This document shows, in pieces, positions 4,578 to 51,842 of a stretch of DNA of 64,000 nucleotides. The stretch's first letter is position 1. Every line of letters starts with the position of its first letter. The stretch is from a virus. Location of the stretch: positions 1-64,000 of IMG/VR virus record IMGVR_UViG_3300025073_000036; one strand, given 5' to 3'. The notes beneath the pieces are model-generated. The model did no database searches and had not been told where the DNA came from. It saw only the letters and a program-made list of their open reading frames with translations. The position numbers were made by a program, and so were the translations under genes.

Positions 4578-4636
4578 CGGGGCTCGACAGGCGCGTGATG
4601 CGCAACTGAGGTGGCCTAGTCCTGACGGGACACGAG

Positions 4637-4670: not shown

Positions 4671-4685
4671 CGTTTTGGGGGGTCG

Positions 4686-35463: not shown

Positions 35464-35665
35464 GATGTTCCCCTTGTCCGTCGGCAACGGGCCGACCGAC
35501 CGCCGACACTAGGCGCCGCGCGCCAATGTGGCAAACAAAAAGTGCGACTCTTGAAAAGGCGTGTTAAAACAGTGCGTTGCGGTAGTTGAGCCCGCTGTGT
35601 GTCGCAGGCCTACCTCACTTGTCGCGCGGCGCGTAGAATCCGACGCGACATCACGGGGGGACGCC
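35464..35665. other. Divergent intergenic region between early operon and lysis cassette
   Basis: This 200-bp gap is the longest in the window. The left part holds the leftward promoter and operator described at 35506-35534. The right part is A/T-richer (about 35530-35570) than its surroundings, and TAGAAT at 35634-35639 is a possible -10 for the lysis cassette without a convincing -35 at the proper spacing. The lysis genes may instead be transcribed from a phage- or host-specific promoter type I cannot identify. Confidence 0.5.
35506..35534 (-). promoter_or_regulatory. Leftward promoter with operator in its spacer
   Basis: On the minus strand TTGCCA (35529-35534) and TAGTGT (35506-35511) are 17 bp apart. 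The 17 bases contain TTGGCGCGCGGCGCC, related to the operator at 51763-51779 and to those at 46351 and 51796. Transcription would start near 35499, 36 bases before the first gene's ATG. Confidence 0.55.
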
Positions 35666-36445
35666 ATGTACCGACAGACGCTCACGGTCGCCGACCTGCA
35701 GCAGCTCGGCCTCGAGGCCTTCGACCTCACCGGCCAGGGCACGGACAACCGGGATCGCGAGGCGGTCCCGCCGGGCATCGTCACGCACACCCCTTCGGTG
35801 ACCTTCGCCCGCAAGGCCCTGACCGCTTTCGAGGCCCATCACGGCCGGCTCCCCACGCCCCACGAGCTCGACGCCACGGCCGCCGCTCGCTTCGACCGCG
35901 CGGCCTACCAGCCGGGCTACCTGATCGGCACGGCGGCCGGTGTGTGGCAGCTCGACCTCGACCACCAGCGCGCGCAGCACTCCGGCATGCTGGCCGACGA
36001 CTCGCCGGCCGGTGATGTCTACAAGGCCGGCACCTGGCGCGAGTGGGCGAGCCCTTCGGACGGCTCCGGCTGGCAGCGCCACGGCCGGCCCGGCCACGTC
36101 GTCTACGACTACTGGGATGCGGCCTTCCCGGGCGCACGCTCGCCCTACGACGTGTTCGTGTGGGGCCGCTACCCGAACAACTGCATCGGCATCGACCTCC
36201 TGCCCGATCCCATGACCGGGGCCTACACGGCCGAGCAGCGGCGCACCTACGTGGCCCTCGCCCGGGCGCTCTCCGGCCTGCACGCCTTCCCGATCCGCTT
36301 CGACCGTGTCACCACGCACACCTACGCCTCGCCGGTCGAGCGCGGCACGCAGCGGCTCAAGGGCGGCAAGATCATCGGTGTGCATTGGGACCCGGACGCA
36401 AAGGTGTGGCCGCACGCGCAGGTCGTGGCCGAGGCGGCCTCGTGA
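35666..36445 (+). CDS. Endolysin, N-acetylmuramoyl-L-alanine amidase (Amidase_2-like)
   Basis: This 259-residue protein cuts the amide bond between muramic acid and the peptide of peptidoglycan. The family pattern is seen in order: IVTHTPSV with the first zinc His (about 41), VWQLDLDHQRAQHSG as in AmpD, NNCIGIDLL with the conserved N..IGI, TAEQRRTYVALARAL, and VTTHTYASPVERG with a second zinc His. GVHWDPDAKVWP supplies the last ligand. There is no signal peptide, so a holin is needed. GGGGGG precedes the ATG 35666. The gene begins the rightward lysis cassette. Confidence 0.75.
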   Translation: MYRQTLTVADLQQLGLEAFDLTGQGTDNRDREAVPPGIVTHTPSVTFARKALTAFEAHHGRLPTPHELDATAAARFDRAAYQPGYLIGTAAGVWQLDLDHQRAQHSGMLADDSPAGDVYKAGTWREWASPSDGSGWQRHGRPGHVVYDYWDAAFPGARSPYDVFVWGRYPNNCIGIDLLPDPMTGAYTAEQRRTYVALARALSGLHAFPIRFDRVTTHTYASPVERGTQRLKGGKIIGVHWDPDAKVWPHAQVVAEAAS

Positions 36446-36900
36446 GCGGCCCCGCCGTGCTCGCGCGCCGCCCGGCCGTCTCGACGGCCCGCATGGCCGG
36501 TTACCGGAAGCTGCTGGCCTTCGGGATCACGGCCGTGTGCGCCACCGTTCTCCAGGCGCTCGACAAGTTCGATCCCACGGTGGCCACCTTCCTGGGCACG
36601 GCCCTGTTGACCTACGTGGGCGGCAATGTGCGGGAGCATGCCCACAGGGCCGCGCAGGCCCGCAGCGGCCTCGAGGAAGTCATGGCGGGCACGAGCCTGC
36701 CGCCGCTGCCGACCCGGCCGCTTGCGCCGCGTCCCGGGGTGCCGGCGCCCTTCGACGAGCGCGAAGCGGGCGACCGGACGGAATTCGACCCGGAACGGCC
36801 GGCCGTGGATCGCGAAACGCTCGTGAACCTGCTGACCGACCTCATGGCCGACCGCATGGCCGGCAGACCGAGCGGTCGGCCGGTGGGGGGCGGCCGGTGA
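36442..36900 (+). CDS. Holin-like membrane protein
   Basis: This 152-residue protein starts at GTG overlapping the endolysin stop (GTGA). Two hydrophobic segments (KLLAFGITAVCATVLQAL, about 22-40, and PTVATFLGTALLTYVGG, about 44-61) are separated by a short loop with Asp and Lys. A long charged C-terminus follows (about 90 residues). This is the layout of a two-TM holin or antiholin that would open the membrane for the endolysin. The family is not named by motif; position supports the role. Confidence 0.6.
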   Translation: MSGPAVLARRPAVSTARMAGYRKLLAFGITAVCATVLQALDKFDPTVATFLGTALLTYVGGNVREHAHRAAQARSGLEEVMAGTSLPPLPTRPLAPRPGVPAPFDEREAGDRTEFDPERPAVDRETLVNLLTDLMADRMAGRPSGRPVGGGR

Positions 36901-37553
36901 ACCTGCTCGACGTGCTGGCCCGGTTCTTCGGCGTTGCGCGCCAGGCGTCAGACGCCGACGAGGCCGACGCGCGCCGCCTCGAGGCCGCGCGCGCTGCCGG
37001 ACGGACGGCTGGGCAGATCGCCAGCGAGGCGGAGGCGGAGGCCAGGCGGTTGCACGCACGGACCGGGCCGCGCTGCCGCGTTTGCGGGGGGACTGGCTTT
37101 CTGCGCGCGCACGTTGACGAGCCTGGGGCGCCCTGCCCGCGCTGCGGCGGCAGCGGCGACGAGCCGGGCGGCCGGTTCTCGGGTGGTCCGCCGCCGGCCG
37201 TGCCGGTCCTGATCGTGGCTCTCATGCTGCCGGCGCAGCTCGCGGCCGCTGCACCGCCCGGGCTGGCCAGCGTGCCGCCACCCCTGCCGCAGCCTCCGCC
37301 GATCTACTGCGAGCGCATGCTCGCCGAGCCGGACCCGCAGGATGCGGCAGGCCTGCAGCGCGTGCTCGTCTGTGAGCGGCTGACGAGCGGCTACCGGTTG
37401 GGGCTCGACGCGCTGGCCCTGCATCGGGCAGAAGAGACGGCGGCCGCGCTGCGCGACCCGCCGAGCCGCCTGCAATGGCTGCTCGTGGGGGCCGGGTTGG
37501 CGGTGCTCACCTTTGGAGCATTCGAGACGTATCAGGAGGTCAACCGGAAATGA
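36897..37553 (+). CDS. Lysis-region protein with DnaJ-like zinc knuckle and C-terminal membrane helix
   Basis: This 218-residue protein overlaps the holin-like gene by 4 bases. It has a charged helical start, then CRVCGGTGF and CPRCGGSGD at about 60-87, two CxxCxGxG motifs like the zinc centre of DnaJ. A hydrophobic Ala-rich stretch follows (VPVLIVALMLPAQLAAAA, about 100-117), with a Pro-rich loop after it. The C-terminus ends with a clear membrane helix (LQWLLVGAGLAVLTFGAF). It may be part of the lysis apparatus or a membrane chaperone; the role is unknown. Confidence 0.5.
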   Translation: MNLLDVLARFFGVARQASDADEADARRLEAARAAGRTAGQIASEAEAEARRLHARTGPRCRVCGGTGFLRAHVDEPGAPCPRCGGSGDEPGGRFSGGPPPAVPVLIVALMLPAQLAAAAPPGLASVPPPLPQPPPIYCERMLAEPDPQDAAGLQRVLVCERLTSGYRLGLDALALHRAEETAAALRDPPSRLQWLLVGAGLAVLTFGAFETYQEVNRK

Positions 37554-37858
37554 TGAAGGGCAGCATGGGCGAATGGATACGGTGGCTGCTGGCAGCGGTC
37601 GTGATTCCGCTCGGTCTGATGGTGATCGACCTGCGGGAGACCATTGCACTCCAGGGCAAAGACATCGCGGGCCTTCAGAAGACCCTGACCGAACACATCC
37701 AGGCCGACGGCCAGCGCATCGAAAAAATCACGGAGCGCGGCCTCGCGCAGAACGACAACCTGATCAAGGCCAACGAGGCCTTGACCGCCCTCAAGGAGCG
37801 ACTCGATGACCTTCTCGAAAGCCTCCGGGCATCATCACGTCGCAGCCGGGGAGGATGA
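37550..37858 (+). CDS. Putative inner-membrane spanin-like protein
   Basis: This 102-residue protein starts at ATGATG after AGGAGG and overlaps the preceding stop. It has one TM helix near the N-terminus (WIRWLLAAVVIPLGLMVI, residues 9-26) followed by a helical coiled-coil domain (ALQGKDIAGLQKTLTEHIQ...ALTALKERLDDLLESLRA). An N-terminal anchor followed by a periplasmic coiled coil is the layout of i-spanins, which fuse inner and outer membranes. Some small holins look similar, so this is moderate. Confidence 0.55.
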   Translation: MMKGSMGEWIRWLLAAVVIPLGLMVIDLRETIALQGKDIAGLQKTLTEHIQADGQRIEKITERGLAQNDNLIKANEALTALKERLDDLLESLRASSRRSRGG

Positions 37859-37862
37859 CCTC

Positions 37863-38162
37863 ATGCCGATGGCCGTTTCTCTATTTCTCGCCATGGTCGT
37901 GTCAGTCGTGCTCAGTGCGACCTCGTCGGCCATCACATCGCACGGCCGCAGCAGCCGCCCGTTGTCGGTAGAGCAGGCCCCGGCGGCCACGCCGACACCG
38001 GCCCCGTCCGCGCCGTCGGAACCTCCGGCGCACGACCCGCTCGACATGATGGGCATGCTCACGGCCGAGCTACAGGATCAGGCGTTGATCCTGGCGTTCG
38101 AGACCGAGCGCATCCGGGCCACGCAACGCCCGCCCGCCCGCCGCCGCCCGCCACCGCGCTGA
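37863..38162 (+). CDS. Small membrane-anchored protein, last gene of lysis cassette
   Basis: This 99-residue protein starts at ATG 37863, chosen because GGGGAGG lies eight bases upstream. Its N-terminus (MAVSLFLAMVVSVVLSATSSA) is a membrane anchor or signal, followed by a Pro/Ala/Ser-rich linker (APAATPTPAPSAPSEPP) and a helical tail with Arg/Pro. It could be the outer-membrane partner of the spanin-like protein, but there is no lipobox Cys, so that is doubtful. It ends convergently with the leftward operon. Confidence 0.5.
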   Translation: MPMAVSLFLAMVVSVVLSATSSAITSHGRSSRPLSVEQAPAATPTPAPSAPSEPPAHDPLDMMGMLTAELQDQALILAFETERIRATQRPPARRRPPPR

Positions 38163-38163
38163 T

Positions 38164-39285
38164 CTACTCGGCACCGATGGCCCGACGCGCGTAGTCGCGG
38201 ATTGCCCATAACACGCCGTCCTTGTGCGGCGCCGCGAAGTTGGGCGAAGCCGGATCGCCGATGGTCCGCAGCGCCTCGCGCAGGCGCGCCGCCTCGTCTC
38301 GGGCCTCGACGAGCTGCGCGTCAGCCGGTTCGGCCGCCGCAGCGGTGCCGGATGCCTTCCGCCGGTCGCGCACCGTCTCATGCACGCGGTCGACCCAGGC
38401 CACGCGCTCGGCCTCGTCCTGACTGCGCAGGAAGAGCACCCGCTTGCCGTCGTGGCCAAACGGGATCTCGGCCAGCAGGTCGAACAGCGACTCGTGATCT
38501 CTCTTGGCGCGTTCCAGCTCGGCGATGCGGTCCTTGGCCGTGGCAAGCGCGTTTTCGAGCTGCGACCGCATCCTCTCGTGCGCGCTCTCGGCGTCGAGCG
38601 CCCGTGTCTCGGCGGCGTGGATGCGCTTGGCGACCTCGCCGGACTCGACCGCCACCGGAGCCGGCCGGTGGGCGTCCACCCAGGTCCAGTCGTGCAGCCG
38701 GGTCGGATCGGCCGGGTTGTCGGTCAGGCCGGCGAAGTCAGCCCGCAGGCCTTGCACCCAAGCGCGCAGCGCGTCGAGCTCGCCCTGCGCGGCGCCGAGC
38801 GAGTGCACAAGCGAGCGGCCGCCCGGGCGGCGGATCTCGATGTCGCAGGCCTCGCCGTCCTTGCCATCGGTGCGGAACACGAGGCCGTTGCGCACGCCAC
38901 CCAGGCGCAACAGGGCGCGCCCGGCGTTGCCGAGTACAATGTGCAGCGCCCGGTCAAGCGTGGCCTCCTGCAGTGGCGGCAGGGCCTCGCCGACGGCCTG
39001 GCCGAGGGCCACCGACTCGATGAGGCCTGAGAAGGCCTCGTACTGCTCGCGCGCGTCGTCGAAAAGGGCCAGCACGAGGGCCACGAGGCGCGGCGAGTAG
39101 GAGCGGGCGGGCAGGACGCAGTCGCCGGGATCAGCCCCCGGGTGCAGCGGAGCCAGCACGTCGCGTGCGAACCGTTCGTGCAGGGCCTCGATGGCCGCGC
39201 CGGATGATGGATGGTCGGCCCAGGCCTCGCGCATCTTGTCGAGCAGCCATGGGGGGAGAACGTCTTTCGTTTCGGCGTCGCTCAC
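38164..39285 (-). CDS. Protein with coiled-coil segment, unknown function
   Basis: This 373-residue protein starts at GTG 39285, overlapping the preceding stop (GTGA). The N-terminus (LPPWLLDKMREAWADHPSSG) is helical and the middle is mixed alpha/beta (LDRALHIVLGNAGRALLRLGG, VFRTDGKDGEACDIEI). A long coiled coil runs from about 230 to 275 (AKRIHAAETRALDAESAHERMRSQLENALATAKDRIAELERAK). I know no family for it. It is the last gene of the long leftward operon and ends two bases from the lysis cassette. Confidence 0.55.
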   Translation of the reverse strand: MSDAETKDVLPPWLLDKMREAWADHPSSGAAIEALHERFARDVLAPLHPGADPGDCVLPARSYSPRLVALVLALFDDAREQYEAFSGLIESVALGQAVGEALPPLQEATLDRALHIVLGNAGRALLRLGGVRNGLVFRTDGKDGEACDIEIRRPGGRSLVHSLGAAQGELDALRAWVQGLRADFAGLTDNPADPTRLHDWTWVDAHRPAPVAVESGEVAKRIHAAETRALDAESAHERMRSQLENALATAKDRIAELERAKRDHESLFDLLAEIPFGHDGKRVLFLRSQDEAERVAWVDRVHETVRDRRKASGTAAAAEPADAQLVEARDEAARLREALRTIGDPASPNFAAPHKDGVLWAIRDYARRAIGAE

Positions 39286-39908
39286 GCGGATCTCCGTTGC
39301 AGCAGTTGAGCGGCCACCGCAGCGGCGGCCGGTTCGTCCACGTTCCACAAGCCTTGCGCGCCCGCGTGAGGCACGGGCTCGGCCAAGGCCTGCACCTCTT
39401 CGAGCACCCATCCGAAGGGGCCGAAGTACCAGGGGTCATTGACGATTTCGCGCGCCCGCTGCGCGCTCACCCCGGAGAACGCATCGAGCACGCCATCCCG
39501 GCTCGTGGTGCGGGGCATGCCCTCAACCCAGCCGACCACGCGCACCACCCCCACGAGCACGCTCTCCGGGTGGCAATAGACCACCGGATCGCTGCCCTTC
39601 GCCCGAGGGAACGCCGATTCTCTCCAGGGCAACCGGATGCCGAGATCCGAGCAGTGCAGGCCGCAGCCGTCGTCCCATTTCTTCCCGGCGTGCAGGGCGA
39701 TCAGGCCGTCGCGCGCGGCCTGCGGCGGCTTCATCGGCCGATTCTCGACTCGTTTCGGACCCGGGCCTTCACCCGGGCGGAGGTGAAAGATCGTGTACGG
39801 CCAGGGTCGCCAGAGAGTCAGCGCGCGCAGGATCATGACGGGCGGGTCCTTTCCGAAGCCCTTGGCGGCCAGCAGGCCGCGCACATGGGAAGGGTGCAGG
39901 GTGGGCAC
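39282..39908 (-). CDS. ASCH-domain protein
   Basis: This 208-residue protein shows the ASCH (ASC-1 homology) pattern: ILRALTLWRPWPYTIFHL near residue 26, then KRVENRPMKPPQAARDGLIALHAGK with the Asn-Arg of the family, VGVVRVVGWVEG, and NDPWYFGPFGWVLEEVQALAEPVPHAGAQGLWNV at the C-terminus. ASCH domains are small PUA-like folds that bind RNA or nucleosides; phage copies often sit beside other DNA/RNA genes. A shorter start at ATG 39836 is possible. The next upstream gene in the same operon is another ASCH-like protein. Confidence 0.75.
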   Translation of the reverse strand: MPTLHPSHVRGLLAAKGFGKDPPVMILRALTLWRPWPYTIFHLRPGEGPGPKRVENRPMKPPQAARDGLIALHAGKKWDDGCGLHCSDLGIRLPWRESAFPRAKGSDPVVYCHPESVLVGVVRVVGWVEGMPRTTSRDGVLDAFSGVSAQRAREIVNDPWYFGPFGWVLEEVQALAEPVPHAGAQGLWNVDEPAAAAVAAQLLQRRSA

Positions 39909-39914
39909 GGGCGG

Positions 39915-40550
39915 TCAGGTGGGGCGGGCGGTGACGTGCAGCACCCACGTCCAGGGGCTTGCCTCGGCGCCGACCGCCAGGCGGCCGCCGTGGTCGCTGC
40001 GGAAGGCCTCGACCAGGGCCTCTCCGGAGGGGAAACCCTCGGCCCCCGCGTCCTCGTCGCCCGCCTCGAGCAGCCGTTGAACGGTCAGGCCCGTCACGTC
40101 GAGGTCGAGCCTGGACATGGCGCGCACCATCTTCGGCGCCGGCTCCCACATCAGGTCATGGAAGCCGCCGCCGCTGGCGTAGTCCGCTTCGTAGGCGAGC
40201 CCGTCCCGCTCTCGGAACCGCTCGGCGTAGTAGGTGGGCGGGTGGTCAGCGTGGAAGCGTTCGCGCACCCACAGGCGCAGCCCGTCGTGGAAGCGGCAGT
40301 CGATCCGGTGCTCGGTGTCGAGGTCAGGATCGCGGGCCTTGAGGCATGGCCCGGGGCCGGTCCCCGCCTGGACGATGTCGAGGGCCGACCAGCGCCGGGG
40401 GCCAGCTCGCGACCCGTCCACGATGGACGTTCCGCAGCGCACGGGCAGGCGGAGGCGGGTGGCCGGCGCCCGCCCGTGCAGGCCGAGGAAGCGGCGCACC
40501 TGATCCGGCGAGAGCGTGAGCGGCCGCTCGGTGGCAACGTGGCGGTTCAC
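39915..40550 (-). CDS. Second ASCH-like (phage morphogenetic-type) protein
   Basis: This 211-residue protein has the pattern of a phage ASCH-like family: TERPLTLSPDQVRRFL near the start, FHDGLRLWVRERF, WEPAPKMVRAMSRLDLDVTGLTVQRLLEAGDEDAGAEGF and PWTWVLHV at the end. The block W.P...M.R.MSR..L.VT...VQRL...DA.AEG is very recognisable in members that bind nucleic acid or nucleotides. A binding pocket is expected between the two beta layers. It is transcribed with the other ASCH gene. Confidence 0.75.
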   Translation of the reverse strand: MNRHVATERPLTLSPDQVRRFLGLHGRAPATRLRLPVRCGTSIVDGSRAGPRRWSALDIVQAGTGPGPCLKARDPDLDTEHRIDCRFHDGLRLWVRERFHADHPPTYYAERFRERDGLAYEADYASGGGFHDLMWEPAPKMVRAMSRLDLDVTGLTVQRLLEAGDEDAGAEGFPSGEALVEAFRSDHGGRLAVGAEASPWTWVLHVTARPT

Positions 40551-40753
40551 TCGGCCCCCTCCGCCGGGGGAGCGGTCTCGCCCCGCGTCGCGCGAATGAC
40601 CTGGGCGGCGCGGTGGCGCTTGTAGGCCTGCACGGCCGGGTTGATCTCGTGCAGGCCACGCAGGCGACCGGCGGTGCGCTCCAAGGCCTCGGCGGTGCCG
40701 AGCAGGACCGCCTCGCTCACCATCACCGCCGCCGTGATGAGCGCGGCGGTCAC
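40547..40753 (-). CDS. Small Ala-rich protein, unknown function
   Basis: This 68-residue protein starts at GTG 40753, overlapping the preceding gene by 4 bases (GTGA). It has a hydrophobic Ala/Val N-terminal helix (VTAALITAAVMVSEAVLLGTAEALERT) that may insert in or touch a membrane, followed by a basic helix. Nothing more can be said of its function. Confidence 0.5.
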   Translation of the reverse strand: MTAALITAAVMVSEAVLLGTAEALERTAGRLRGLHEINPAVQAYKRHRAAQVIRATRGETAPPAEGAE

Positions 40754-42662: not shown

Positions 42663-43348
42663 AGGCCGTGCTCGTGGCAGGTCGAGTCGTGGCAGGTGTC
42701 CGACACGTCGCCGCAGATGTCGCACCACTTCATTGTCCCGTGGCATTGCCCATCGCCCGGGCACGACTCGGCCAGGCGGGCGGCCTCGCGCTCTTCATCG
42801 GCACGGCGCACAACCTGCCGGTGCGAACGCAGGGCCGACTCAATGTTGAGCGCGAGCCAGGACTTGAGCGTGCCCGCAGGCCAGCCGTGCGCGACGCCGA
42901 AGGTCAGATCGGCCCGGGTCTTTCGGTCGGCGGCGGCGGCCAGACGCAGGACGATCCGGCCCTCGACGCTTGGCGTGCCGTCGGCCTCGGGCGGTGCAAG
43001 CTGAAACGGCTCGGCCAACGACCCCAGGATCTCGGCCGTCTCCTGCTCGCCGATCTCATCGGCGTGGGGCGCCTCGACTCCGCACGGACGAACGTCGGAA
43101 TGGGCGAGCTCCATCGTCTGCCACAACCGGCGGGCCACCTCGTCGGCCTTCACCCAGGCGGCATGCAACAGCGGCAAGGCCGGCACCATGATCGACCGGT
43201 CGCTGCGTTCGACGATCCGGCGGGCCTCGTCTTCGGTGTAGAGCCCGGCTGCGGCCACCTCGTCGGTGTAGCCGGACGACTCCGGCCGCCAGTAGCGGCC
43301 CCGGCCCGATTGGTGTTCGGGCAGAACTTCCACGAGAAAGCGCGACAT
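42659..43348 (-). CDS. Protein with C-terminal Cys/His cluster, unknown function
   Basis: This 229-residue protein starts at ATG 43348 (GTG 43351 is the alternative), overlapping the SbcC stop. The middle is helical, and the C-terminus holds a dense zinc-binding cluster (CPGDGQCHGTMKWCDICGDVSDTC, then HDSTCHEH). It may be a DNA- or RNA-binding accessory to the SbcCD complex, suggested only by position. Confidence 0.55.
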   Translation of the reverse strand: MSRFLVEVLPEHQSGRGRYWRPESSGYTDEVAAAGLYTEDEARRIVERSDRSIMVPALPLLHAAWVKADEVARRLWQTMELAHSDVRPCGVEAPHADEIGEQETAEILGSLAEPFQLAPPEADGTPSVEGRIVLRLAAAADRKTRADLTFGVAHGWPAGTLKSWLALNIESALRSHRQVVRRADEEREAARLAESCPGDGQCHGTMKWCDICGDVSDTCHDSTCHEHGL

Positions 43349-46269
43349 CACATGACCTCGAGCGTGGAGCCGTTGACGCCCGGCCGGACTTCGACCCGGT
43401 GCGGCAGGCAGTCGGCCACAGCGTCGATGTGCGTGACCACGAGCACGAGCGGGTAGAGCCGCTGCAGGCCGGTGACGGTGTCCTTGAGCGCGTCGATGCC
43501 GCTCACGTCCAGGGCGCCGAATCCACCTTCATCGATCAGCAGCCATTCGACGGGCACACCTTCACGGTCGGCCAGCAGCCGGGCCAAGCCGAGGCGGAGG
43601 GCGATGTCGATGCGGAATTGCTCGCCGCCCGAGAAGTCCTCGTATTCACGCTCCCCCACGTCGTCGGTGACCACGAAGCGCATGACCTCGCGCTGCCCGC
43701 CGTCGTCGGTCGTGGCCTGGGTCTCGATCCGCAGGCGCATGCCGCGCGTGGAGATCGCCCCGAGCACCCGGTTGGCCTCCAGCTCGAGCACCGGGATCGC
43801 TTTCTCGATCACGAGCGTGGGGGCCAGCGCGCAGGCCTCGGCCGTGCGGTCGAGCTGCCGCGCGGTCTCGGCGTACATGGCGGCCGTCTCCAGCTCGCCC
43901 CGGGCCTGCTCGGCACGGCGGGCCACGTCCTCGAGCACGGCCTCGGCCCTGGCGTGCAGCCGCTCGGCCTCGGTGACCGACTTCTCGGCCGCCTCGCGCG
44001 CCTGGCGGGCCTCGCTGGCGGCCGTCTCGGCCACCATGGCGTTCATGGCCTGCTCGTCCGTGCTGCTGGCGCGCTCGACCTCGGCGGCGCGCTCGGCGCG
44101 CTCGGTGTCCAGCCGGGCGATCTGCCGCTCGATGTCACTGCGCTGGGAGACGGCCAGCTCGGCCGCAGCGCGCTTCCCCGCCGTGGTCTCGCAGCTCGTC
44201 ACGGCCGCGCGGGCGGCGGTCACGGCCGCTTCGGCGGCGGCCACGTTGGGCACGCCGAGCTCGTCGATCTTGCCGCGCACGCTGGCACCCTCGCGGGCGA
44301 GGCGCGCCACCTCGTCGGCCTCGGTGCGGGCACGCTCGGCGGCGCCGCGTTTGGCGTCCACCGTGGCCGAGTCGCGCTCGGCCTGGGCCAGCGCGGTACG
44401 GGCGTTGTCGAGCGCGGTGCGCGCCACGCTCTCGGCGTGCGCGGCGGTGCGCCGGGCGGCGGCGGCGGCGGCCTGCCGCTCGCGCAGCGCGTTGCGAGCG
44501 TTCCCCAGCGCCCGACCGGCGTCGGCGTCCAGTCGGTCGGCCGCGTCGTAGGCCTCGGTCGCCTGTCGGACGGCGGCCTGGGCCGCCTCGTGGGCCGCCT
44601 CGGCCTCGGCCAGCTTCTCGCGCGCTGCGGGCAACCCGTCGCGCGCGGCCACCGCGTCGGCGATGAGGGGGCAGGTGCCGGCCAGGTCACACGACACCTG
44701 CCCGATCATCGGGTCCGTTGACATCCACTGAGGGTGCCGGGCGCACGGCGCCTGGGTCAGTCGAGCGGCCGCTTGGGTCAGCCGCTCGGCGTTGCTCGTC
44801 GCCGTGGCGAGCGCGATGTGCGTTGCGTTGCGGGCGTTGCCGGCCTGGATCTGCGCCTGCTGCGCTTCGGTCAGGGCGGCCCGGGTGGTCGTGGCCGTCG
44901 TCTCGTCCACCTGCTCGGCGCGCGCCGCGTCGTCCGCCACCTCGGCCGTGCGCATCGCCGCGCTGGCGGTGTCGAGCGCGCCCTTGGCCTCGTCCACCTT
45001 GACCCGCAGGCCTTCGATCTGCCCGGCCGCCGCTTCGGCCTGGGTCAGCCCGGCCGCTTCGGCGTCGGCGGCCTTCTGGCGGCCGCTGGCGGCCGTGTAG
45101 AGCTCGACGAGGCGCTTGCGCTCGACCACGAGCGCGTCGAGCTTCCCCTGCGCCTCGCGCACCTGCACAAGGGCCGCCTCGGCCTCGGCCAGCCGCTCAC
45201 GCACGCCGGGCAGATCGGTCTCGGCCTTCGCTGCCGCGTCCAGCTCCGCCGCCGGCCCGGCCAGCTCGTTGAAGCGGGCACGCGCGGCGGTGATCTCGCC
45301 GTCCAGGGCGGAGATCCGCCGCCGTGCCTCGTCCACGTTGCGGGCGGCCGCCTGCGCCGCTTCGAGGGCCTGCTGCGCCGCCGTGTGCGCCGCGTGTGCG
45401 CTCGCCTCGGTGGTCTTGGCGCACGCGAGGCGCACACGGGAGGCCTCGACCACGCCGGAGGCCTCCTGGGCCAGCAGAGCGAAGACCTCCGCCATGCGCG
45501 GCGCCTCGACCGCTCCGCCCGTGTTCTTCAACGTGAAGTAGATCACGTTCCACGCGCCTTCATCGTCGTACCGGGCGAGCTCGTGGCCGTCGGGCGCGCA
45601 GGCCAGGACCGGGCGGTCGACGGGCAGCATGGCCCGCAGGCCGGCCGCGATGGTCGCCGCCCGGGCGTTGGCCTCGTCCCGCTTGGCCGTGGCGTCCCGG
45701 GCGCCGGCCCGGGCGCGGTCGAGCCAGACGCGCCAGCGGCCGAGATCGAGCGAGCGACGCAGGATGTCGCGCCGCTCTTCCGGCTTCGCCCGGGTGAGCC
45801 GGTTGGCGTCGTTCTGCATCATCACCGACGCCGCGAGCAGGGTGTCGTACTCGATGCCCAGGATGCGGCGGATCTCCGCCTGCGTCTCGCGCGCGCCCTT
45901 GCCGCTCATCGGCTCCCAGTGCTCGTCGTGCACGCCGTCGACCGGGCTCGTCTCCAGCACCCATCGGTACAGGTCGAGCTCGCTCTTGGTGCCCGATCCG
46001 CGCACGCTGATCTTGCGCACGATCTTGTAGGTCTCGCCGGTGCTGCTGAACTCCAGCTCGCCCACGCAGTCGGTGGCGCCCTTGCGCACCACGCCGGTGA
46101 TGCGGCTCGACCGGCTCTCGCCGAACGGCACCCACACGATTCCCTCCGCGAGCGAGCTTTTGCCCGCCCCGTTGGGGCCAGTGATCACCGCGCCCGGCAT
46201 GGTCGTGAAGTCGAGATCCACGTCCGCCCAGGCGCGGTAGTTCCGCAACCGAAACCGCTTCAAACGCAT
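43348..46269 (-). CDS. sbcC: SbcC/Rad50-like nuclease ATPase subunit (phage gp46-like)
   Basis: This 973-residue SMC-type ATPase pairs with the SbcD-like nuclease encoded upstream at 48714-50123. The Walker A GPNGAGKSS is at residues 31-39, the ABC signature FSGGEQFRIDIALRLG from about 879, Walker B WLLIDEGG near 910 and the H-loop VVTHID near 945. Long Ala/Glu-rich coiled coils fill the centre. The hook region around 505-535 has CARHP and CDLAGTCP instead of the usual CPxC, so the zinc hook is degenerate. The complex makes 3' ends for recombination. ATG 46269, first gene after promoter 46348-46375. Confidence 0.85.
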   Translation of the reverse strand: MRLKRFRLRNYRAWADVDLDFTTMPGAVITGPNGAGKSSLAEGIVWVPFGESRSSRITGVVRKGATDCVGELEFSSTGETYKIVRKISVRGSGTKSELDLYRWVLETSPVDGVHDEHWEPMSGKGARETQAEIRRILGIEYDTLLAASVMMQNDANRLTRAKPEERRDILRRSLDLGRWRVWLDRARAGARDATAKRDEANARAATIAAGLRAMLPVDRPVLACAPDGHELARYDDEGAWNVIYFTLKNTGGAVEAPRMAEVFALLAQEASGVVEASRVRLACAKTTEASAHAAHTAAQQALEAAQAAARNVDEARRRISALDGEITAARARFNELAGPAAELDAAAKAETDLPGVRERLAEAEAALVQVREAQGKLDALVVERKRLVELYTAASGRQKAADAEAAGLTQAEAAAGQIEGLRVKVDEAKGALDTASAAMRTAEVADDAARAEQVDETTATTTRAALTEAQQAQIQAGNARNATHIALATATSNAERLTQAAARLTQAPCARHPQWMSTDPMIGQVSCDLAGTCPLIADAVAARDGLPAAREKLAEAEAAHEAAQAAVRQATEAYDAADRLDADAGRALGNARNALRERQAAAAAARRTAAHAESVARTALDNARTALAQAERDSATVDAKRGAAERARTEADEVARLAREGASVRGKIDELGVPNVAAAEAAVTAARAAVTSCETTAGKRAAAELAVSQRSDIERQIARLDTERAERAAEVERASSTDEQAMNAMVAETAASEARQAREAAEKSVTEAERLHARAEAVLEDVARRAEQARGELETAAMYAETARQLDRTAEACALAPTLVIEKAIPVLELEANRVLGAISTRGMRLRIETQATTDDGGQREVMRFVVTDDVGEREYEDFSGGEQFRIDIALRLGLARLLADREGVPVEWLLIDEGGFGALDVSGIDALKDTVTGLQRLYPLVLVVTHIDAVADCLPHRVEVRPGVNGSTLEVM

Positions 46270-46294
46270 GTTGGTCCCCCGACCATGAAGTTGT

Positions 46295-46311
46295 GCGCCG
46301 CCGGGCGGCGC
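46295..46311 (-). other. Hairpin in the SbcC leader
   Basis: GCGCCGC / GCGGCGC with a 3-base loop forms a perfect 7-bp stem in the untranslated leader between the promoter at 46348-46375 and the SbcC start. There is no T tract, so it may act as RNA stabiliser or attenuator. A second, weaker 4-bp stem at 46273-46284 holds the GGGGG ribosome site in its loop. Confidence 0.4.
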
Positions 46312-46347
46312 CCGCCTGTAGGGCACCGGACAAGCGGCAGGTGCGAG

Positions 46348-46375
46348 CATTTAGCGCGACGCGCTAAGAAGTCAA
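46348..46375 (-). promoter_or_regulatory. Leftward SbcC-operon promoter with perfect-dyad operator
   Basis: On the minus strand TTGACT (46370-46375) is followed at 16-17 bp by TAAATG/AAATGC. The spacer contains the 17-bp palindrome at 46351-46367, with arms TTAGCGCG and CGCGCTAA around one central base. It belongs to the operator group at 35510-35526, 51763-51779 and 51796-51812. Transcription would start about 70 bases before the SbcC ATG. Confidence 0.55.
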
Positions 46376-46390
46376 CAGGAAAGCGCGCGG

Positions 46391-46837
46391 TCAGTCGGAC
46401 CGCGACGACTCGGCGGTGAGCTCGTGAATGGACACGGTGCGCTCCGAGTGGCCGATGCACTCGTTGTCGTAGGTCTGGACGGACGCGGCCACCCGAATCA
46501 GGCCGCGCGCGAAGTCGATGCCGGACCGTGTCGGACGGTAATTGCCGCGCCCTTCGCGCTCGATCAGCCCCCAGTGCACGAGGAAGGCCAGATCGGTCGA
46601 GGCCTTGGTGGCCTTGGCGCTGCCCTGGACAAAGTCGCGCACCTGGCACCACTGGCCCGGCCGCAGCTCGTGAAGGTCCACGAGCCGCACGAGGTTGATC
46701 GCGATCTCACGGTGCAACTTGCGGGTGTAGATCTGCGTGGTGCGCTGGCAGCAGGGGCAGGTCACGGGCTTGCCACCCTCGAGGGCGACGAAGTGTTCGT
46801 GCGAGGCCTCGGCCAGGGTGCGCGGGGAGCTGGACAT
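46391..46837 (-). CDS. Zinc/winged-helix-like protein
   Basis: This 148-residue protein has a CPCC pair near residue 27 and a domain with winged-helix character from about 75 to 120 (ATKASTDLAFLVHWGLIEREGRGNYRPTRSG, a helix-turn-helix plus wing). It may bind DNA and regulate the early operon. AGGTAACC before the ATG is the ribosome site. Function is not assigned. Confidence 0.55.
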   Translation of the reverse strand: MSSSPRTLAEASHEHFVALEGGKPVTCPCCQRTTQIYTRKLHREIAINLVRLVDLHELRPGQWCQVRDFVQGSAKATKASTDLAFLVHWGLIEREGRGNYRPTRSGIDFARGLIRVAASVQTYDNECIGHSERTVSIHELTAESSRSD

Positions 46838-46840
46838 GGG

Positions 46841-47020
46841 TTACCTCCGGCCTCGCAGGATCTCGCGCACGATGGTCCTGGCGTAGGCCTGATTTTCGCG
46901 GCGCAGGCGCCGGACGGTGGCGGTCAGACACATCAGGTCGAGCCGGTGCTCGAAACACCGCCAGGAGAGCCACACGAGGCCCGCAGCGAGCAGGCCGTGC
47001 ATCACCTCGGCAAGGTTCAC
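46841..47020 (-). CDS. Small single-span membrane protein
   Basis: This 59-residue protein starts at GTG 47020, overlapping the previous stop by 4 bases. A hydrophobic segment (VMHGLLAAGLVWLSWRCF, about 6-23) is followed by a positively charged C-terminus (RRLRRENQAYARTIVREILRGRR), so the tail probably faces the cytoplasm. It could alter the host membrane or tether another protein. Confidence 0.5.
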   Translation of the reverse strand: MNLAEVMHGLLAAGLVWLSWRCFEHRLDLMCLTATVRRLRRENQAYARTIVREILRGRR

Positions 47021-47778
47021 AGATCGTCCGTGTCCAGGCCGGCCGCGTCGGCCAGGTGCTCGACCACGAGGGCCAGATCGGTCGAGTCCACCTCGACCGT
47101 GGGATCGTTGCGGCGCGAGGCACGCAACAGGCGCAGCAGGGCCTCGTGCGTGTCGTCGTCGAGCCGGACGGTGCGTGGGGGCTCGACGGTCACGACCGGA
47201 AGCGGCGCGGTGGTCGGGCGTCGGTCGGGCCGGGCGTCGGCGTAGACGCGGTCGAAGGCCTCGCGGTTGACCGGATCGCCGCCGACCAGCAGCGCAGGGG
47301 GGTAGTGGGCCTCGATGCAGCCGGCGGGGTCGAGGCCGACGAACGCACCGCAGGTGCACCGCAACTTCATGCCCGGCGGGCCGTGGACAACCCGTATCGG
47401 TGCGCCGGAGGCCGGGCAACGTGCTGAATCGCTCCGGGCGGCCGGCGGGCGAGGGGGGCTTCCCGCCGGCCGCCCGTGGGCGAATCCGATCTGTACGAGC
47501 AAGGCCGCCGCTTCGGTGAAGCGGCCGACGTAGGCCGTGTGCGCCCAGCTCCCGAGCGCGCCGCTGTACGTCCACCCCAGGGCCGTCAGGCCGCGCGCGT
47601 GATCCACGCTGCCCGTCCAGTAGTGCAGGCGGTTGCAGGCCGGGCACGGCCGGGCGTCGCAGGGCGGATCGCCGACGTTGTGGCACATGCCGTTGCACTT
47701 CCCCACGTCGCCCAGGAAGAGCACGTCGCAGCCGGAGCACTGCCACAGGTTGCGCACGGTCAGGTCAGGCAGGGCCAT
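47017..47778 (-). CDS. Cys-rich zinc-binding protein, unknown function
   Basis: This 253-residue protein carries a dense N-terminal zinc cluster (CSGCDVLFLGDVGKCNGMC, CDARPCPACNRLHYW) and a second set near 130-145 (RCTCGAFVGLDPAGC). The C-terminus is helical (DTHEALLRLLRASRRN, DLALVVEHLADAAG). Several zinc knuckles in one protein point to nucleic-acid or protein binding. No family is recognised. It overlaps the membrane protein's start. Confidence 0.55.
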   Translation of the reverse strand: MALPDLTVRNLWQCSGCDVLFLGDVGKCNGMCHNVGDPPCDARPCPACNRLHYWTGSVDHARGLTALGWTYSGALGSWAHTAYVGRFTEAAALLVQIGFAHGRPAGSPPRPPAARSDSARCPASGAPIRVVHGPPGMKLRCTCGAFVGLDPAGCIEAHYPPALLVGGDPVNREAFDRVYADARPDRRPTTAPLPVVTVEPPRTVRLDDDTHEALLRLLRASRRNDPTVEVDSTDLALVVEHLADAAGLDTDDL

Positions 47779-48535
47779 CGGGCACCTCCGCCGGGGCCAC
47801 GCGCACGCCGAAGGCGACGATGTCGGCCTCGTCGAGCATCACAGCGATCCCGGTGAACTCACACTGCCACGGGACCGCCCGGGCCGCGCAGGCCCGCACG
47901 AAGGCCTCGGCGTCGGCCAGCTCGCCCCCGTTCTCGCCCTCGTTCTCGTCGCTGCCGAAATCCTCGCTGAAACGCTCGGCCCACCAGTCGAGCAGGTCAC
48001 GAGCTGCGCGCCGGATGTAGTCGTCGTCGATGTCGCGCCGTTCGTAGACGTGGAGCGCGACCGGGCCGGAGACCACGGGGCCGTGCACGTCCTCGAGCGC
48101 GGCCTGTGGGTCATCCCACATGCGTTCGGCATCGTGCGGGCCATACAGCGGCTCCCAGCCCTGCGCGAGGGCCTGGAAGTCGCGCCAGGCCACCGTGCGG
48201 GTGGGCGCCTTGAAGCCGCTGCCACGACAGATCGGGCAGACCTCGTCCTTGTCGTCCGGGCACGGCGTCCAGCAGCAACCGTTCTTGCGCTCCGCCGTCT
48301 CCTGGCGGCCCCAGTCCTTCGGCTCGCCGTGGACCCAGGCGAACTCGTTTGGCTTCACACCCAGCCGGCCACCTGGCGTCAAAACCGACACCGCGCCGTA
48401 GTGATTCATGTAGGCCAGGTGCTCGGCCGGCTCGGCCACCGCAGTCGGCTTGTCCGGGTTCACCAAGCTGGCCAGAAAGGGGAAGTCGGCGGTCACGCGC
48501 TTGACAAGCCTCACGGTGGGGTTGTTGCGCTTCAT
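47765..48535 (-). CDS. Protein with CxxCxGxG motif, unknown function
   Basis: This 256-residue protein starts at ATG 48535, overlapping the previous stop (ATGA). It has CCWTPCPDDKDEVCPICRGSGF at about 88-108, with a DnaJ-type CPICRGSG. Acidic stretches (SEDFGSDENEGENGGELADAEAF) occur near the C-terminus. It may be an accessory protein of the early operon; function is not recognised. Confidence 0.55.
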   Translation of the reverse strand: MKRNNPTVRLVKRVTADFPFLASLVNPDKPTAVAEPAEHLAYMNHYGAVSVLTPGGRLGVKPNEFAWVHGEPKDWGRQETAERKNGCCWTPCPDDKDEVCPICRGSGFKAPTRTVAWRDFQALAQGWEPLYGPHDAERMWDDPQAALEDVHGPVVSGPVALHVYERRDIDDDYIRRAARDLLDWWAERFSEDFGSDENEGENGGELADAEAFVRACAARAVPWQCEFTGIAVMLDEADIVAFGVRVAPAEVPDGPA

Positions 48536-48717
48536 CCCTCGCAACCCATCTGGTAGTGACCGCCGCAGGTGGGCGAGCAGAAGGTCAGTTTACGTCTGCG
48601 GACGTACTTCTTTCGCTTTACCTCGTCGAAGGCCAGGTCGGTGATCGTCGTCGTGTGTGGCGTGGCGATGAGCGCGCCGCACTGCGGACACTTGGCGGGC
48701 TGGTTGAGGGCGCTCAC
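48532..48717 (-). CDS. Tiny zinc-ribbon protein
   Basis: This 61-residue protein starts at GTG 48717 and overlaps the preceding stop (GTGA). It has CPQCGALIATPH and CSPTCGGHYQ separated by 36 residues, a four-Cys zinc ribbon. A basic segment (DEVKRKKYVRRRKL) suggests nucleic-acid binding. The small size and operon place it as an accessory of SbcD. Confidence 0.6.
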   Translation of the reverse strand: MSALNQPAKCPQCGALIATPHTTTITDLAFDEVKRKKYVRRRKLTFCSPTCGGHYQMGCEG

Positions 48718-50123
48718 GCCGCACCGACCTTCCCGGCCGACCCCTGCTCGGCCGCCCAGTTGCGGATGTTGCCACGGATCGCTTCCTCGTCCGGGGCGAG
48801 GTCGGGGCGGGCGCTGAACACGGCGGAGAGCACACCCTCGAAACCGAGCTCGGTCTGCACGTCCTCGACGCGCGCCCGGTCGGCCCGGGCCACCTTGCAG
48901 CCGTTGGTGATCGTCACCCCGCAGGCCTTGAGCTCGCGCACGAGCCCGGCCACGACCTCGTTCTCGGCCTCGGTGATGCCGTCCCGGTCGGGCGAGACCA
49001 CGCGGTAGACCCAGGCCTGGTCGCCCCGCTCCGCCTCGGCCTTGAGCTCGGTCAGGTGGTCGTGCACCTCGTCCGGGTGCAGGGTGACAAAGCGGCGGGC
49101 GCCCGGGTTGGCGTGGAACTGGCAGGCCCACCGTTCGCGCACCGGCCCGCCATCGTCGGCCACGAACTCGCGCGCGAAGGTGCTCACGCCCTTCGGCTGG
49201 CCCTCTTCGCCGAAGTCCATGCGGTCGGGGCTGCCGATGTAGCCGTGGGTGAAGAGCATGCCCCGCCCGTCGTCGGTCTCCGCGTCCTCGACCACGGGCG
49301 AGGCCACGGCCTGCCGCTTGTGCAGGTGGCCCCACACGGCCAAGTCGAAGGCGGGGAAGGTGTCGGTCGAGATCGGAGAGTCGGCGAGCGGCACGGTCTG
49401 GTAATCGTTGTATGCCGCGCTGGCGAGCGTGCCGTGCCCGAAGAGGATGCAGGGCGCCCCGGGCGCGACCTCGCGACAGAGCGGCACGAGCTGCGCGTGC
49501 GCGCCCAGGACGGCGTTGAAGCCGCCGGCCAGCACCGCCGACGTAACAACCACGCTGCCGCTCACCTCCGCCGCCGCCGCCCGGGCCGGGTAGGGCACGG
49601 GGAAGATCCAGGCCTCGACCTCGAGCCCGGCCATCCCGGCCGGGTCGGTGAAGGCCACGGCGGCCAGCCGCCCGTTGACGCCGTCACGCACGAGGGCCTG
49701 GGGCGCGAAGGTGTCGAGCACGACGACCTCGGCCGGCCGGAGGTGTTTCAGCGGCTCGAGCGCGTGCGTCCCGCTCCCGTTCGGGCGGTCGTGATTGCCG
49801 AGCAGGACGAGCACGAGAACGCCCGCGTCGGCCCACGACGCGAACGACTCCTGCACGACGGCCTCGGCGGCCGGCAGCGGGCGCGGATCGGGGTAGACAT
49901 CGCCGGCCACGAGCACGAGGTCGCAGCGGTTGGTGCGGGCGGTCTGGCCGATCCACGCGAGCGTCTGGCGGGCCTGGGCCAGGACGAGCGGCCGGCGGGT
50001 GGCCCGGTCGACCGGCTGGAGGCCGGCGAGGTTCTGTGTGGCGCTGACGTGCAGGTCGGCGCAGGCGAGGATGCGCAGCTCGCGCGCGGCCTCGTCAAAG
50101 TCGGTGTCAATGGTCTCGTTCAT
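48714..50123 (-). CDS. sbcD: SbcD/Mre11-like nuclease subunit (phage gp47-like)
   Basis: This 469-residue metallophosphoesterase nuclease contains all five Mre11 motifs: ACADLH (D23, H25), VAGDVYPDP (D75), LGNHDR (N110, H111), FGHGTL (H230) and WGHLHK (265-268). It would bind two Mn ions and process DNA ends with the SbcC ATPase. The start at ATG 50123 was chosen because GACAAGGGGAACACC lies directly before it. It lies 3 kb upstream of SbcC, with several small zinc proteins between them, an unusual separation. The C-terminal domain (about 340-430) joins the SbcC coiled coil. Confidence 0.85.
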   Translation of the reverse strand: MNETIDTDFDEAARELRILACADLHVSATQNLAGLQPVDRATRRPLVLAQARQTLAWIGQTARTNRCDLVLVAGDVYPDPRPLPAAEAVVQESFASWADAGVLVLVLLGNHDRPNGSGTHALEPLKHLRPAEVVVLDTFAPQALVRDGVNGRLAAVAFTDPAGMAGLEVEAWIFPVPYPARAAAAEVSGSVVVTSAVLAGGFNAVLGAHAQLVPLCREVAPGAPCILFGHGTLASAAYNDYQTVPLADSPISTDTFPAFDLAVWGHLHKRQAVASPVVEDAETDDGRGMLFTHGYIGSPDRMDFGEEGQPKGVSTFAREFVADDGGPVRERWACQFHANPGARRFVTLHPDEVHDHLTELKAEAERGDQAWVYRVVSPDRDGITEAENEVVAGLVRELKACGVTITNGCKVARADRARVEDVQTELGFEGVLSAVFSARPDLAPDEEAIRGNIRNWAAEQGSAGKVGAA

Positions 50124-50244
50124 GGTGTTCCCCTTGTCGAAGTTGGTGCCGGTCTCTCCCCGGCAGTCACGCATGGTTGAGCGGCCGCGTTCCCTGGATC
50201 GCCCTCGGCCTCGCGGCGTCACCGGGCGATGCGTGTCCCGTCGC

Positions 50245-51429
50245 CTACCAGGGGATCGGGTCGTCTTCCACGTCGTCGAGCTTTGACCACAAGCGGCACT
50301 GATGCAGGGGCGAGAGCGCGCGGATCGCCTGCTCGCTCATCGTGCCCGGACCGGGGCCGACCTTGCCCTTGCTGCGAGCGTACTTCACGAGCTCGTCGAC
50401 GCTTGCGCGCGGTGTCGGCTCGCCCGGCGGTGGCCCAGCGGCCCCCGGGTTGCCCGCGTCGTCGTCGGCCCATCCGTCGGCCGGGCCGTCGGCGGGGCCG
50501 AGCCCGTGCTCGTCGTCGTCGTCGATGTGCGTGACCGCCGTGACCGGCACCTCGGCGCCTCGCATGTCCGGTAGCAGGCCCCCGGTCATCATCGACCCGA
50601 TGGCCCGGAAGAGCGCGTCGCCCATGCCCAGCGCCTTGCTGGCGGTCATCAGGGCCACGGCCCGGTTCGTCTCCGGATCGCCGAAGTCACCCGTCCACAC
50701 CAGCCGCCCGGCCACGAACGGCTTGGCCAGCTCTTCGGCGGTGTACTCGTGCCGCAGGCCGAGCACCCGACGGATCAGGCGCGACCACGCTTTCGTCTCG
50801 CAGTGCTCGGCGATGAAGGCGCGCGTGCGGCGGAGCTGTTTCGCGCCCGCTTCGGCCGAGCTGGCGCTCGCCAGCAGCTCGAGCGTGGCGGGCGAGTCGT
50901 CGTTGAGGTCGAGCGAGCGCGTGGCCGCGTAGAGGTGGTCGGCGCCGTCCATGCCGCGCAGCTTCCCGACCGCGCGGCAGCGCACGTACAGCGGATCGTC
51001 GCCCCGGTCGATGCGGGTGCACAGCTCCGGCACGCAAGAGAGCCCGGCCGCGTTGCCGATCCGGTCGAGCAGCGGGCGGAGCATGGAGAACATCGTAGGG
51101 CCGTCGCGCTTCGTGGCCTGGGTGTTCCGGTAGATCTCGCCCGACGTGGGCAGCACGGCCGACATGGCCAGCCGGTAGCCGGCTGGCACGGCGTCCACGG
51201 CCGTGACGGGCAGGATGAGGTTGGTGTGCTCCTGCAGCCACGCCATCGCCTCGCGCAGGCGGGCCGGATCGCCGTGGGCGAGCCGCTGGCCCACCTCGGT
51301 CATCAGCGACGGATCGGTGCGGATGATCTCGGCACGCTGCTGCCCGCCTTCGGGCGGGACGAAGTCGCCGTTGGCCGGTTTCTGCCACGGCCGCCGCTGG
51401 CCCTGCTGGCCCTGCCTCGGTGGTGTCAC
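50245..51429 (-). CDS. Putative single-strand annealing protein (RecT/Rad52-like)
   Basis: This 394-residue protein has features seen in phage annealing proteins: a core with beta strands around AGYRLAMSAVLPTSGEIY, then IAEHCETKAWSRLIRRVLGL, where the ETKA..R..R...GL pattern resembles the conserved helix of this group, and YTAEELAKPFVAGRLV. The C-terminus is acidic and Pro/Gly-rich, which fits an SSB-like partner-binding tail. GACAAGGGGAACAAC precedes the GTG 51429. Neighbouring SbcCD supports a recombination role. The fold is not proven by these motifs; a replication or DNA-binding function remains possible. Confidence 0.45.
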   Translation of the reverse strand: MTPPRQGQQGQRRPWQKPANGDFVPPEGGQQRAEIIRTDPSLMTEVGQRLAHGDPARLREAMAWLQEHTNLILPVTAVDAVPAGYRLAMSAVLPTSGEIYRNTQATKRDGPTMFSMLRPLLDRIGNAAGLSCVPELCTRIDRGDDPLYVRCRAVGKLRGMDGADHLYAATRSLDLNDDSPATLELLASASSAEAGAKQLRRTRAFIAEHCETKAWSRLIRRVLGLRHEYTAEELAKPFVAGRLVWTGDFGDPETNRAVALMTASKALGMGDALFRAIGSMMTGGLLPDMRGAEVPVTAVTHIDDDDEHGLGPADGPADGWADDDAGNPGAAGPPPGEPTPRASVDELVKYARSKGKVGPGPGTMSEQAIRALSPLHQCRLWSKLDDVEDDPIPW

Positions 51430-51480
51430 GTTGTTCCCCTTGTCCTGATGGCCCCCGGGGTGCCGACGGGGGCGTGCTGG

Positions 51481-51729
51481 TCAACTGGCGGCCGACTCCT
51501 GCGCCGGCCGCCGCTTCACCGGGTAGCCCCCGCTGTAGCCCGGCAGATCGTTCAGACTCACGCGCTCGTGGCCGTCCTTGTCGAGGCAGGCCTCGACGAT
51601 GCGAGCGGCCAGGGGCGGGGACGGCATGAGCGTGCCGCAGCAGATGCGGTCGATGTTGCTCTTGGAGCACCCGACCCGCTCGGCGAATGCGCGCCGTTCT
51701 CCGCGCCGCAGGAAATCCTCAAGTCGCAT
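51481..51729 (-). CDS. Cro/YdaS-like DNA-binding regulator
   Basis: This 82-residue protein (start ATG 51729; ATG 51738 is the alternative) begins MRLEDFLRRGERRAFAERVGCSKSNIDRICCGTLMPSPPLAARIVEA. The segment GERRAFAERVGCSKSNIDRICCG is a helix-turn-helix of the Cro/YdaS type, in which S-K-S-N-I-D-R forms the recognition helix. The GGGA ribosome site is eight bases before 51729. It sits beside a divergent pair of promoters carrying two operators, as expected of a repressor that controls its own synthesis. The C-terminal 30 residues are likely for dimerisation. Confidence 0.7.
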   Translation of the reverse strand: MRLEDFLRRGERRAFAERVGCSKSNIDRICCGTLMPSPPLAARIVEACLDKDGHERVSLNDLPGYSGGYPVKRRPAQESAAS

Positions 51730-51758
51730 TGGCGACATCCCGTACAAGTCAAGGCCCA

Positions 51759-51787
51759 ACAATAGGCGCCACACGCCAACAAGGCAA
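51759..51787 (-). promoter_or_regulatory. Leftward early promoter of the regulator gene with operator in spacer
   Basis: On the minus strand TTGCCT (51782-51787) and TATTGT (51759-51764) are exactly 17 bp apart, a good sigma70 promoter. The spacer contains the operator TTGGCGTGTGGCGCC. The layout is the same, base for base in many positions, as that of the promoter at 35506-35534. Transcription would start near 51752, about 23 bases before ATG 51729. Confidence 0.7.
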
Positions 51788-51795
51788 GATGAAAA

Positions 51796-51842
51796 TTAGC
51801 GTGTGAGGCGTATTGACAGCCCGGCGACCCTGAACGTAGCGT
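51796..51842 (+). promoter_or_regulatory. Rightward replication promoter with adjacent operator
   Basis: The operator TTAGCGTGTGAGGCGTA (51796-51812) directly abuts -35 TTGACA (51813-51818), and -10 TAGCGT (51837-51842) is 18 bp downstream. The start of the replication operon is near 51849, 22 bases before GTG 51871. A repressor bound to the operator could block RNA polymerase. The promoter core TTGACA-N18-TAGCGTCG also occurs at 4548-4579. Confidence 0.65.

Follow-up and report, generated by a model that had tools for sequence, protein, structure and literature searches.

We investigated a repeated 17-bp element in a 64,000-nucleotide window of viral DNA (bases 1-64000 of IMG/VR record IMGVR_UViG_3300025073_000036, whose full contig is 94,886 bp), and found it to be a dyad, TWRGCG-N5-CGCYWA, restricted to intergenic DNA and standing in register with predicted promoters. 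We think it reasonably probable that this dyad is the operator of one dimeric phage repressor, most likely the 82-residue XRE/Cro-like helix-turn-helix (HTH) product of the gene at 51481-51729 (minus strand), and that this repressor lowers several operons. Because at least seven copies sit in or beside promoters, a single small regulator, probably encoded beside two of them, could reduce the expression of several gene blocks together. The best reading of its class is a P1-like regulon of dispersed operators, under a single autoregulated XRE repressor: the same operator is found at the promoters of several separate operons and is rare elsewhere (seven places, all intergenic and most of them within or touching predicted promoters).

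The remaining 31 kb of the contig were added to the window, and genes were called across the whole contig by a simple codon-usage script. A first-pass annotation of the window had listed four sites under the consensus TTRGCG-N3-SRSGCSTA (17 bp); their letters, coordinates, and strands were all correct, but the total is at least seven, and one of the additional copies (35619-35635, plus strand) lies within the window itself. Exact matches to this consensus numbered four in 94.9 kb (35510, 51763, and the new 76509 on the minus strand; 51796 on the plus strand), with 0.027 expected by chance (order-2 Markov copies, maximum 1 in 300 copies) and one match in an unrelated 7.6-Mb genome of high guanine-plus-cytosine (GC) content. 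A weight matrix trained on the four listed sites and run across the whole contig ranked 51763 (minus), 51796 (plus), 46351, 35510 (minus), 76608 (minus), 76509 (minus), and 35619 (plus) in that order (23.7 to 16.2 bits), the 46351 site being scored on both strands and counted as one place. The annotation had proposed just such a search, and its outcome was favorable: all seven places at or above 16.2 bits are intergenic, in a contig with 6.4% intergenic DNA, and every one exceeds the best genic match (13.8 bits). Shuffled contigs returned 0.04-0.15 matches of at least 16.2 bits on average. Three of the seven places (35619-35635, 76509-76525, and 76608-76624, the last two outside the window) had been held out of matrix training. 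The next match (63572-63588, 14.0 bits) begins at the ATG of a short open reading frame and was dropped.

Dyad matches amounted to 30 of 42, against 11.7 for shuffled sites, and none of 20,000 shuffles reached 30. Across 18 halves (seven sites plus two orthologues), the half-site reads T-(T/A/G)-(A/G/C)-G-C-G, with positions 1 (T) and 5 (C) constant in 18/18 and positions 4 (G) and 6 (G) in 17/18. The 11-bp distance between half-site centers would suit a dimer on one helix face. The 46351 site is a perfect dyad (TTAGCGCG-T-CGCGCTAA); it has two mismatches to the written consensus, yet of the sites, which the annotation had already marked as palindromic in this case, it is the best palindrome.

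The operator fills a 17-bp spacer in three leftward promoters (TTGCCT-TG-TTGGCGTGTGGCGCC-TATTGT at 51763, TTGCCA-CA-TTGGCGCGCGGCGCC-TAGTGT at 35510, and TTGCAT-TG-TTAGCGGGCCGCGCC-TACTGT at 76509) and in one rightward promoter (76608, in rightward reading TTGTCG-GGTAGGCGCCGCACGCT-CATAGT), usually extending into the -10. The annotation's wording "exactly inside" the 17-bp spacers needs correcting, since in the three best-matching leftward promoters the final TA of the element forms the first two bases of the -10, e.g., TTGCCT-TG[TTGGCGTGTGGCGCC-TA]TTGT. Three promoters share TTGC-N4-operator-NTGT. At 46351 the arrangement is TTGACT-TC-TTAGCGCGTCGCGC-TAAATG, with a 16-bp spacer; the 51796-51812 site directly precedes the TTGACA at 51813 of TTGACA-18-TAGCGT, so that it does abut the -35 of the rightward replication promoter, as originally described; and the 35619 site runs into TAGAAT without a clear -35. 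Three divergent intergenic regions carry two sites each. A generic sigma-70 scan, blind to the element, put 51759-51787, 51813-51842, 35506-35534, and 46348-46375 in the first four places among intergenic promoters of the contig, and all four are operator-bearing. The promoter at 4548-4577 (plus strand), ahead of structural genes, is without operator; it has the same hexamers as the replication promoter and is kept in a relative. The element therefore marks a subset of promoters.

One relative, IMGVR 3300044996_000447 (38 kb, ~83% nucleotide identity overall, mostly 74-88% in aligned blocks), spans the 76.5-kb region. Its orthologue of the 76509 site differs by one change, at a central base, and that of the 76608 site by three, two central and one A-to-T where the half-site already has both letters. 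The -10 of both 76.5-kb promoters and the rightward -35 are unchanged, and the leftward -35 goes from TTGCAT to TTGCGT. The two best matrix matches in the relative are this orthologous pair. The long pattern TTGC-N4-TTRGCG-N3-SGCGCC-TANTGT has one other carrier among 2.9 million IMG/VR contigs, a set from which the window's own record was excluded, and it is the same 38-kb relative.

From this arrangement we infer that the sites are occupied and that binding represses. A dimer bound between the -35 and -10, over the -10, or against the -35 would keep RNA polymerase off. MerR activators typically act at promoters with spacers of 19-20 bp; because the spacers here are 16-17 bp, a protein on the site would be expected to occlude polymerase. 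Sites lying over the spacer and -10 or against the -35, with spacers of 16-18 bp, are therefore read as a steric-repression regulon and not as MerR-type activation. The leftward operons lowered would be those at 35.5 kb, 46.3 kb (SbcC-like), 51.7 kb (the regulator itself and SbcD-like), and 76.5 kb (DpdA/Mom-like); rightward, replication at 51.8 kb (DnaC-like loader) would be lowered, and the same would probably hold for the promoter at 76.6 kb and for that of the possible lysis cassette at 35.6 kb. The regulator's own gene would belong to the regulon, so that its level would be set by negative feedback.

The candidate regulator has its HTH at residues 12-48 (HTH_31, E 7.5e-6), a marginal match of 26.6 bits alone and 27.3 with neighbors in frame at a cut-off of 27, with HTH_3 below cut-off. 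It was the sole XRE-type gene detected in whole-contig domain searches and, because it lies behind one of the sites, its autorepression is likely; we suggest that its product is the protein binding the sites. Behind operator 4 (51763), the HTH gene is followed by a gene for a 394-residue protein and then by a SbcD-like gene. Sequence matches in PDB were prophage Cro proteins and weak (E 0.3). A Cro-like relative (51% over the HTH) sits in a classical cI/Cro pair with an upstream dyad, GTTTGC-N5-GCAAAC, of the same 17-bp geometry and different letters, which we did not use as proof.

Several results count against a regulon run by this protein. The main gap is that no relative covering 34-64 kb was found in IMG/VR protein searches, so that comparative support is limited to the 76.5-kb pair; close IMG/VR relatives of the HTH, neighboring 394-residue, SbcC-like, and DnaC-like proteins were not found, and the 352-residue phrog_2045 protein had only distant ones. 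The predicted structure of the HTH protein is poor, with a mean predicted local distance difference test score of 56 and no significant structural match. The -10-like hexamer TAGAAT at operator 2 (35634-35639) has a weak sigma-70 score of 9.4 and no good -35. Finally, the contig encodes other DNA-binding candidates, namely two proteins with only a LexA DNA-binding domain (55629-55940 and contig 70789-71118) and an IclR/MarR-like protein (55937-56458).

One of the latter, LexA-type winged-helix or IclR/MarR-like, might bind the same operators, the XRE gene being merely one target. The LexA_DNA_bind matches are strong (E 1e-11 and 7e-14, in proteins both too short for a protease domain), and such proteins bind dyads too. 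However, of all these genes the XRE gene alone has a site next to it, in its own promoter, and the half-site TWRGCG is not known to resemble LexA boxes; we regard another binder as unlikely.

A true lysogeny repressor, holding a prophage (as a P1-like plasmid or by some form of integration) and silencing replication, lysis, and early operons together, would differ from the repressor proposed above in purpose, with operators and binder the same. The site set takes in replication and also the possible lysis cassette, which favors a prophage repressor, and the distribution resembles that of P1 C1 operators (PMC8546580). We nevertheless assign lysogeny a low probability: searches of the contig gave no integrase or serine recombinase (neither PF00589 nor PF00239 matched), no resolvase, and no ParA, the regulator gene shares an operon with early nuclease genes, and no operator accompanies the main rightward promoter (4548), which precedes the structural genes. 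Lytic timing is favored by the lack of integrase and ParA and by the predicted co-expression of the regulator with early nucleases. It is possible, and we put it forward tentatively, that a large tailed phage with an SPO1-type major capsid protein and without integrase or ParA uses a small Cro-like repressor and P1-style dispersed operators to time its lytic program, damping early nuclease, DpdA/Mom-like, replication, and lysis operons together, while the promoter of the structural operon would be free of operators and would lead into a terminator, in the manner of lambda PR'.

In three leftward promoters the element stands at a constant distance from the -10, and fixed registers of this kind are known also for activator boxes and alternative sigma factors; the element might instead be the box by which an activator or a phage sigma-like factor turns on a single temporal class of promoters. 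This is quite improbable, as the element is a dyad and its position varies (51796 upstream of the -35, 46351 in a 16-bp spacer, 76608 shifted and reversed relative to its promoter), the promoters already have fair sigma-70 hexamers, and a search of the contig gave no Sigma70_r4 domain. That GC-rich promoter spacers resemble one another by chance, as the 70% GC of the contig and the GC-rich motif core might suggest, can practically be dismissed, given 4 exact matches and 7 strong matrix places where 0.03 and 0.04-0.15 were expected, held-out sites that are all intergenic, and a pair conserved in the relative.

The first-pass annotation had interpreted the sites as a lambda-like switch. A shared element on early promoters in both directions, including the XRE/Cro-like and replication promoters, is indeed present, but the switch is not supported: in the contig there is one operator per promoter and not three, with one or two per region and no cluster of three, a single XRE-type HTH gene in place of opposed repressors, and no tyrosine or serine integrase or ParA was found. 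The HTH gene comes first in an early leftward operon with a SbcD-like nuclease, and therefore suits early-gene autoregulation and not bistable opposed repressors.

Operator 1 (35510-35526, minus strand, TTGGCGCGCGGCGCCTA) lies in TTGCCA-17-TAGTGT (35506-35534, minus strand), the leftward promoter of the 35.4-33.9 kb operon, which the sigma-70 scan ranks third among intergenic promoters at 11.5 bits. Operator 2 (35619-35635, plus strand, TTGTCGCGCGGCGCGTA; matrix 16.2 bits) is intergenic, upstream of the gene at 35666, which opens a rightward four-gene operon (35666-37858, plus strand). Of its four products, the first matches Amidase_2 weakly, below cut-off, and the last is hydrophobic over a stretch at its N-terminus, suggesting a possible lysis cassette. 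Operator 3 (46351-46367, minus strand) lies in TTGACT-16-TAAATG (46348-46375, minus strand, 11.5 bits), the promoter of the SbcC-like leftward operon (46.3-38.2 kb), in which the SbcC-like ATPase gene comes first (43348-46269, minus strand; phrog_77 E 3.6e-49, AAA_23 E 4.6e-13). The promoter of the HTH operon (51.7-46.4 kb), TTGCCT-17-TATTGT at 51759-51787 (minus strand), is the best intergenic sigma-70-like promoter of the contig (13.4 bits) and contains operator 4 (51763-51779, minus strand, TTGGCGTGTGGCGCCTA); its SbcD-like phosphoesterase is encoded at 48714-50174 (minus strand; phrog_100 E 2.3e-14, Metallophos E 2e-9). Operator 5 (51796-51812, plus strand, TTAGCGTGTGAGGCGTA) adjoins the replication promoter (51813-51842, plus strand, 12.7 bits), and the replication operon starts with a 324-residue protein and a DnaC-like helicase loader (51871-53735, plus strand; phrog_50 E 3.8e-32).

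Beyond the window, the exact-consensus site at contig 76509-76525 (minus strand) precedes the leftward 76.4-74.3 kb operon, with adjacent DpdA-like (PF23859 E 7e-19) and Mom-like genes (contig 74260-76450, minus strand) that form a probable DNA hypermodification module. The site at contig 76608-76624 (matrix strand minus) belongs to a rightward promoter reading into a non-coding stretch at 76.6 kb. In contig 76600-76943, downstream of this operator-bearing promoter, come a GC-rich hairpin of 16 bp (z -3.4) and then non-coding DNA that is conserved over ~250 bases and without a match in Rfam; a leader or small RNA is possible. At window 4548-4672 (plus strand), the promoter TTGACA-18-TAGCGT has a strong hairpin within ~90 bases downstream, with CCTTTTTG at its end. 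This leader lies ahead of the genes for head protease and capsid and has hardly changed in a relative that keeps the promoter; it resembles an attenuated late promoter of the lambda PR' type or else a small RNA.

The contig carries TerL, portal, and protease genes, and encodes a major capsid protein sharing ~27% identity with SPO1-type proteins; three fragments, the 38-kb relative among them, carry a 94%-identical capsid protein. Among 50,697 phage records there was no nucleotide match to the contig, and its proteins had only remote matches in that collection. Bases 1-99 are repeated exactly at 93873-93971, and 373-1157 (785 bp) recurs with 86.6% identity at the opposite end (region 93873-94886). 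Because its ends overlap, the contig probably represents almost all of a permuted genome of ~93.9 kb; the end repeats (1-1157 and 93873-94886) give the impression that the assembly ran round such a genome and took in a variant copy. A TerL search of GTDB genomes returned a 37% identical match on the 98.8-kb contig JALORE010000001.1, binned in a Planctomycetota metagenome-assembled genome and possibly a mis-binned phage relative that hints at host range. That genome shows no enrichment of the motif and was set aside.

A motif spotted by eye in one window predicted further promoter sites outside that window and in a relative, which makes an unusually clean regulon from sequence alone. It would tie anonymous operons of a phage lineage without close isolate (SbcCD-like, DnaC-loader, DpdA/Mom-like, and possible lysis genes) to one regulator, and exact sites are now defined for gel-shift and reporter work. 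If the phage is strictly lytic, it would exemplify dispersed-operator control outside lysogeny.

The OR and OL regions of phage lambda contain 17-bp dyad operators for CI and Cro. The likeness here consists of 17-bp dyads at divergent early promoters, an XRE/Cro-like HTH gene, and a replication operon on one side; the contig differs in that each promoter has one site, the seven sites are spread across four regions, there is a single HTH gene, and no integrase was found. In the Streptomyces phage phiC31, conserved inverted repeats (CIRs) of ~17 bp occur at many early promoters and are bound by the c repressor. By description this is similar, with ~17-bp inverted repeats at early promoters and one repressor, but phiC31 is temperate and integrates, and its CIRs are far more numerous. 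The stoperators of Cluster A mycobacteriophages are asymmetric, oriented with transcription, and stop elongation (PMC9283540, PMC4351075). They share with our sites the many genome-wide positions for one repressor; with many copies within or between genes, they differ from the symmetric, promoter-bound sites here. Cluster O (Corndog) mycobacteriophages have >30 copies of a 17-bp TGTTCGG-N3-CCGAACA of unknown function, are without integrase and parAB, and are not obviously temperate (PMC4351075). Both cases have a repeated 17-bp dyad, and neither integrase nor ParA was found in the contig here, but about a third of the Cluster O copies lie inside genes with no promoter tie, whereas the copies here, at least seven, are all intergenic and mostly within promoters.

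The genome of phage P1 is ~94 kb. Its C1 repressor has 22 dispersed 17-bp operators (PMC8546580). In both phages 17-bp operators are scattered over a ~94-kb genome at the promoters of separate operons, that for replication among them and, if the XRE product is the binder here, also that of the repressor gene. The sites here do not belong to the P1 C1 regulon by homology, as the P1 operator (ATTGCTCTAATAAATTT) is asymmetric and the sites here are dyads, TWRGCG-N5-CGCYWA; P1 also lysogenizes as a plasmid and has Coi, Lxc, and c4, whereas no ParA was found on this contig. The principle is known from phages such as P1, while the site set and operons here have not been described previously; functionally, P1 C1 is the closest described case.

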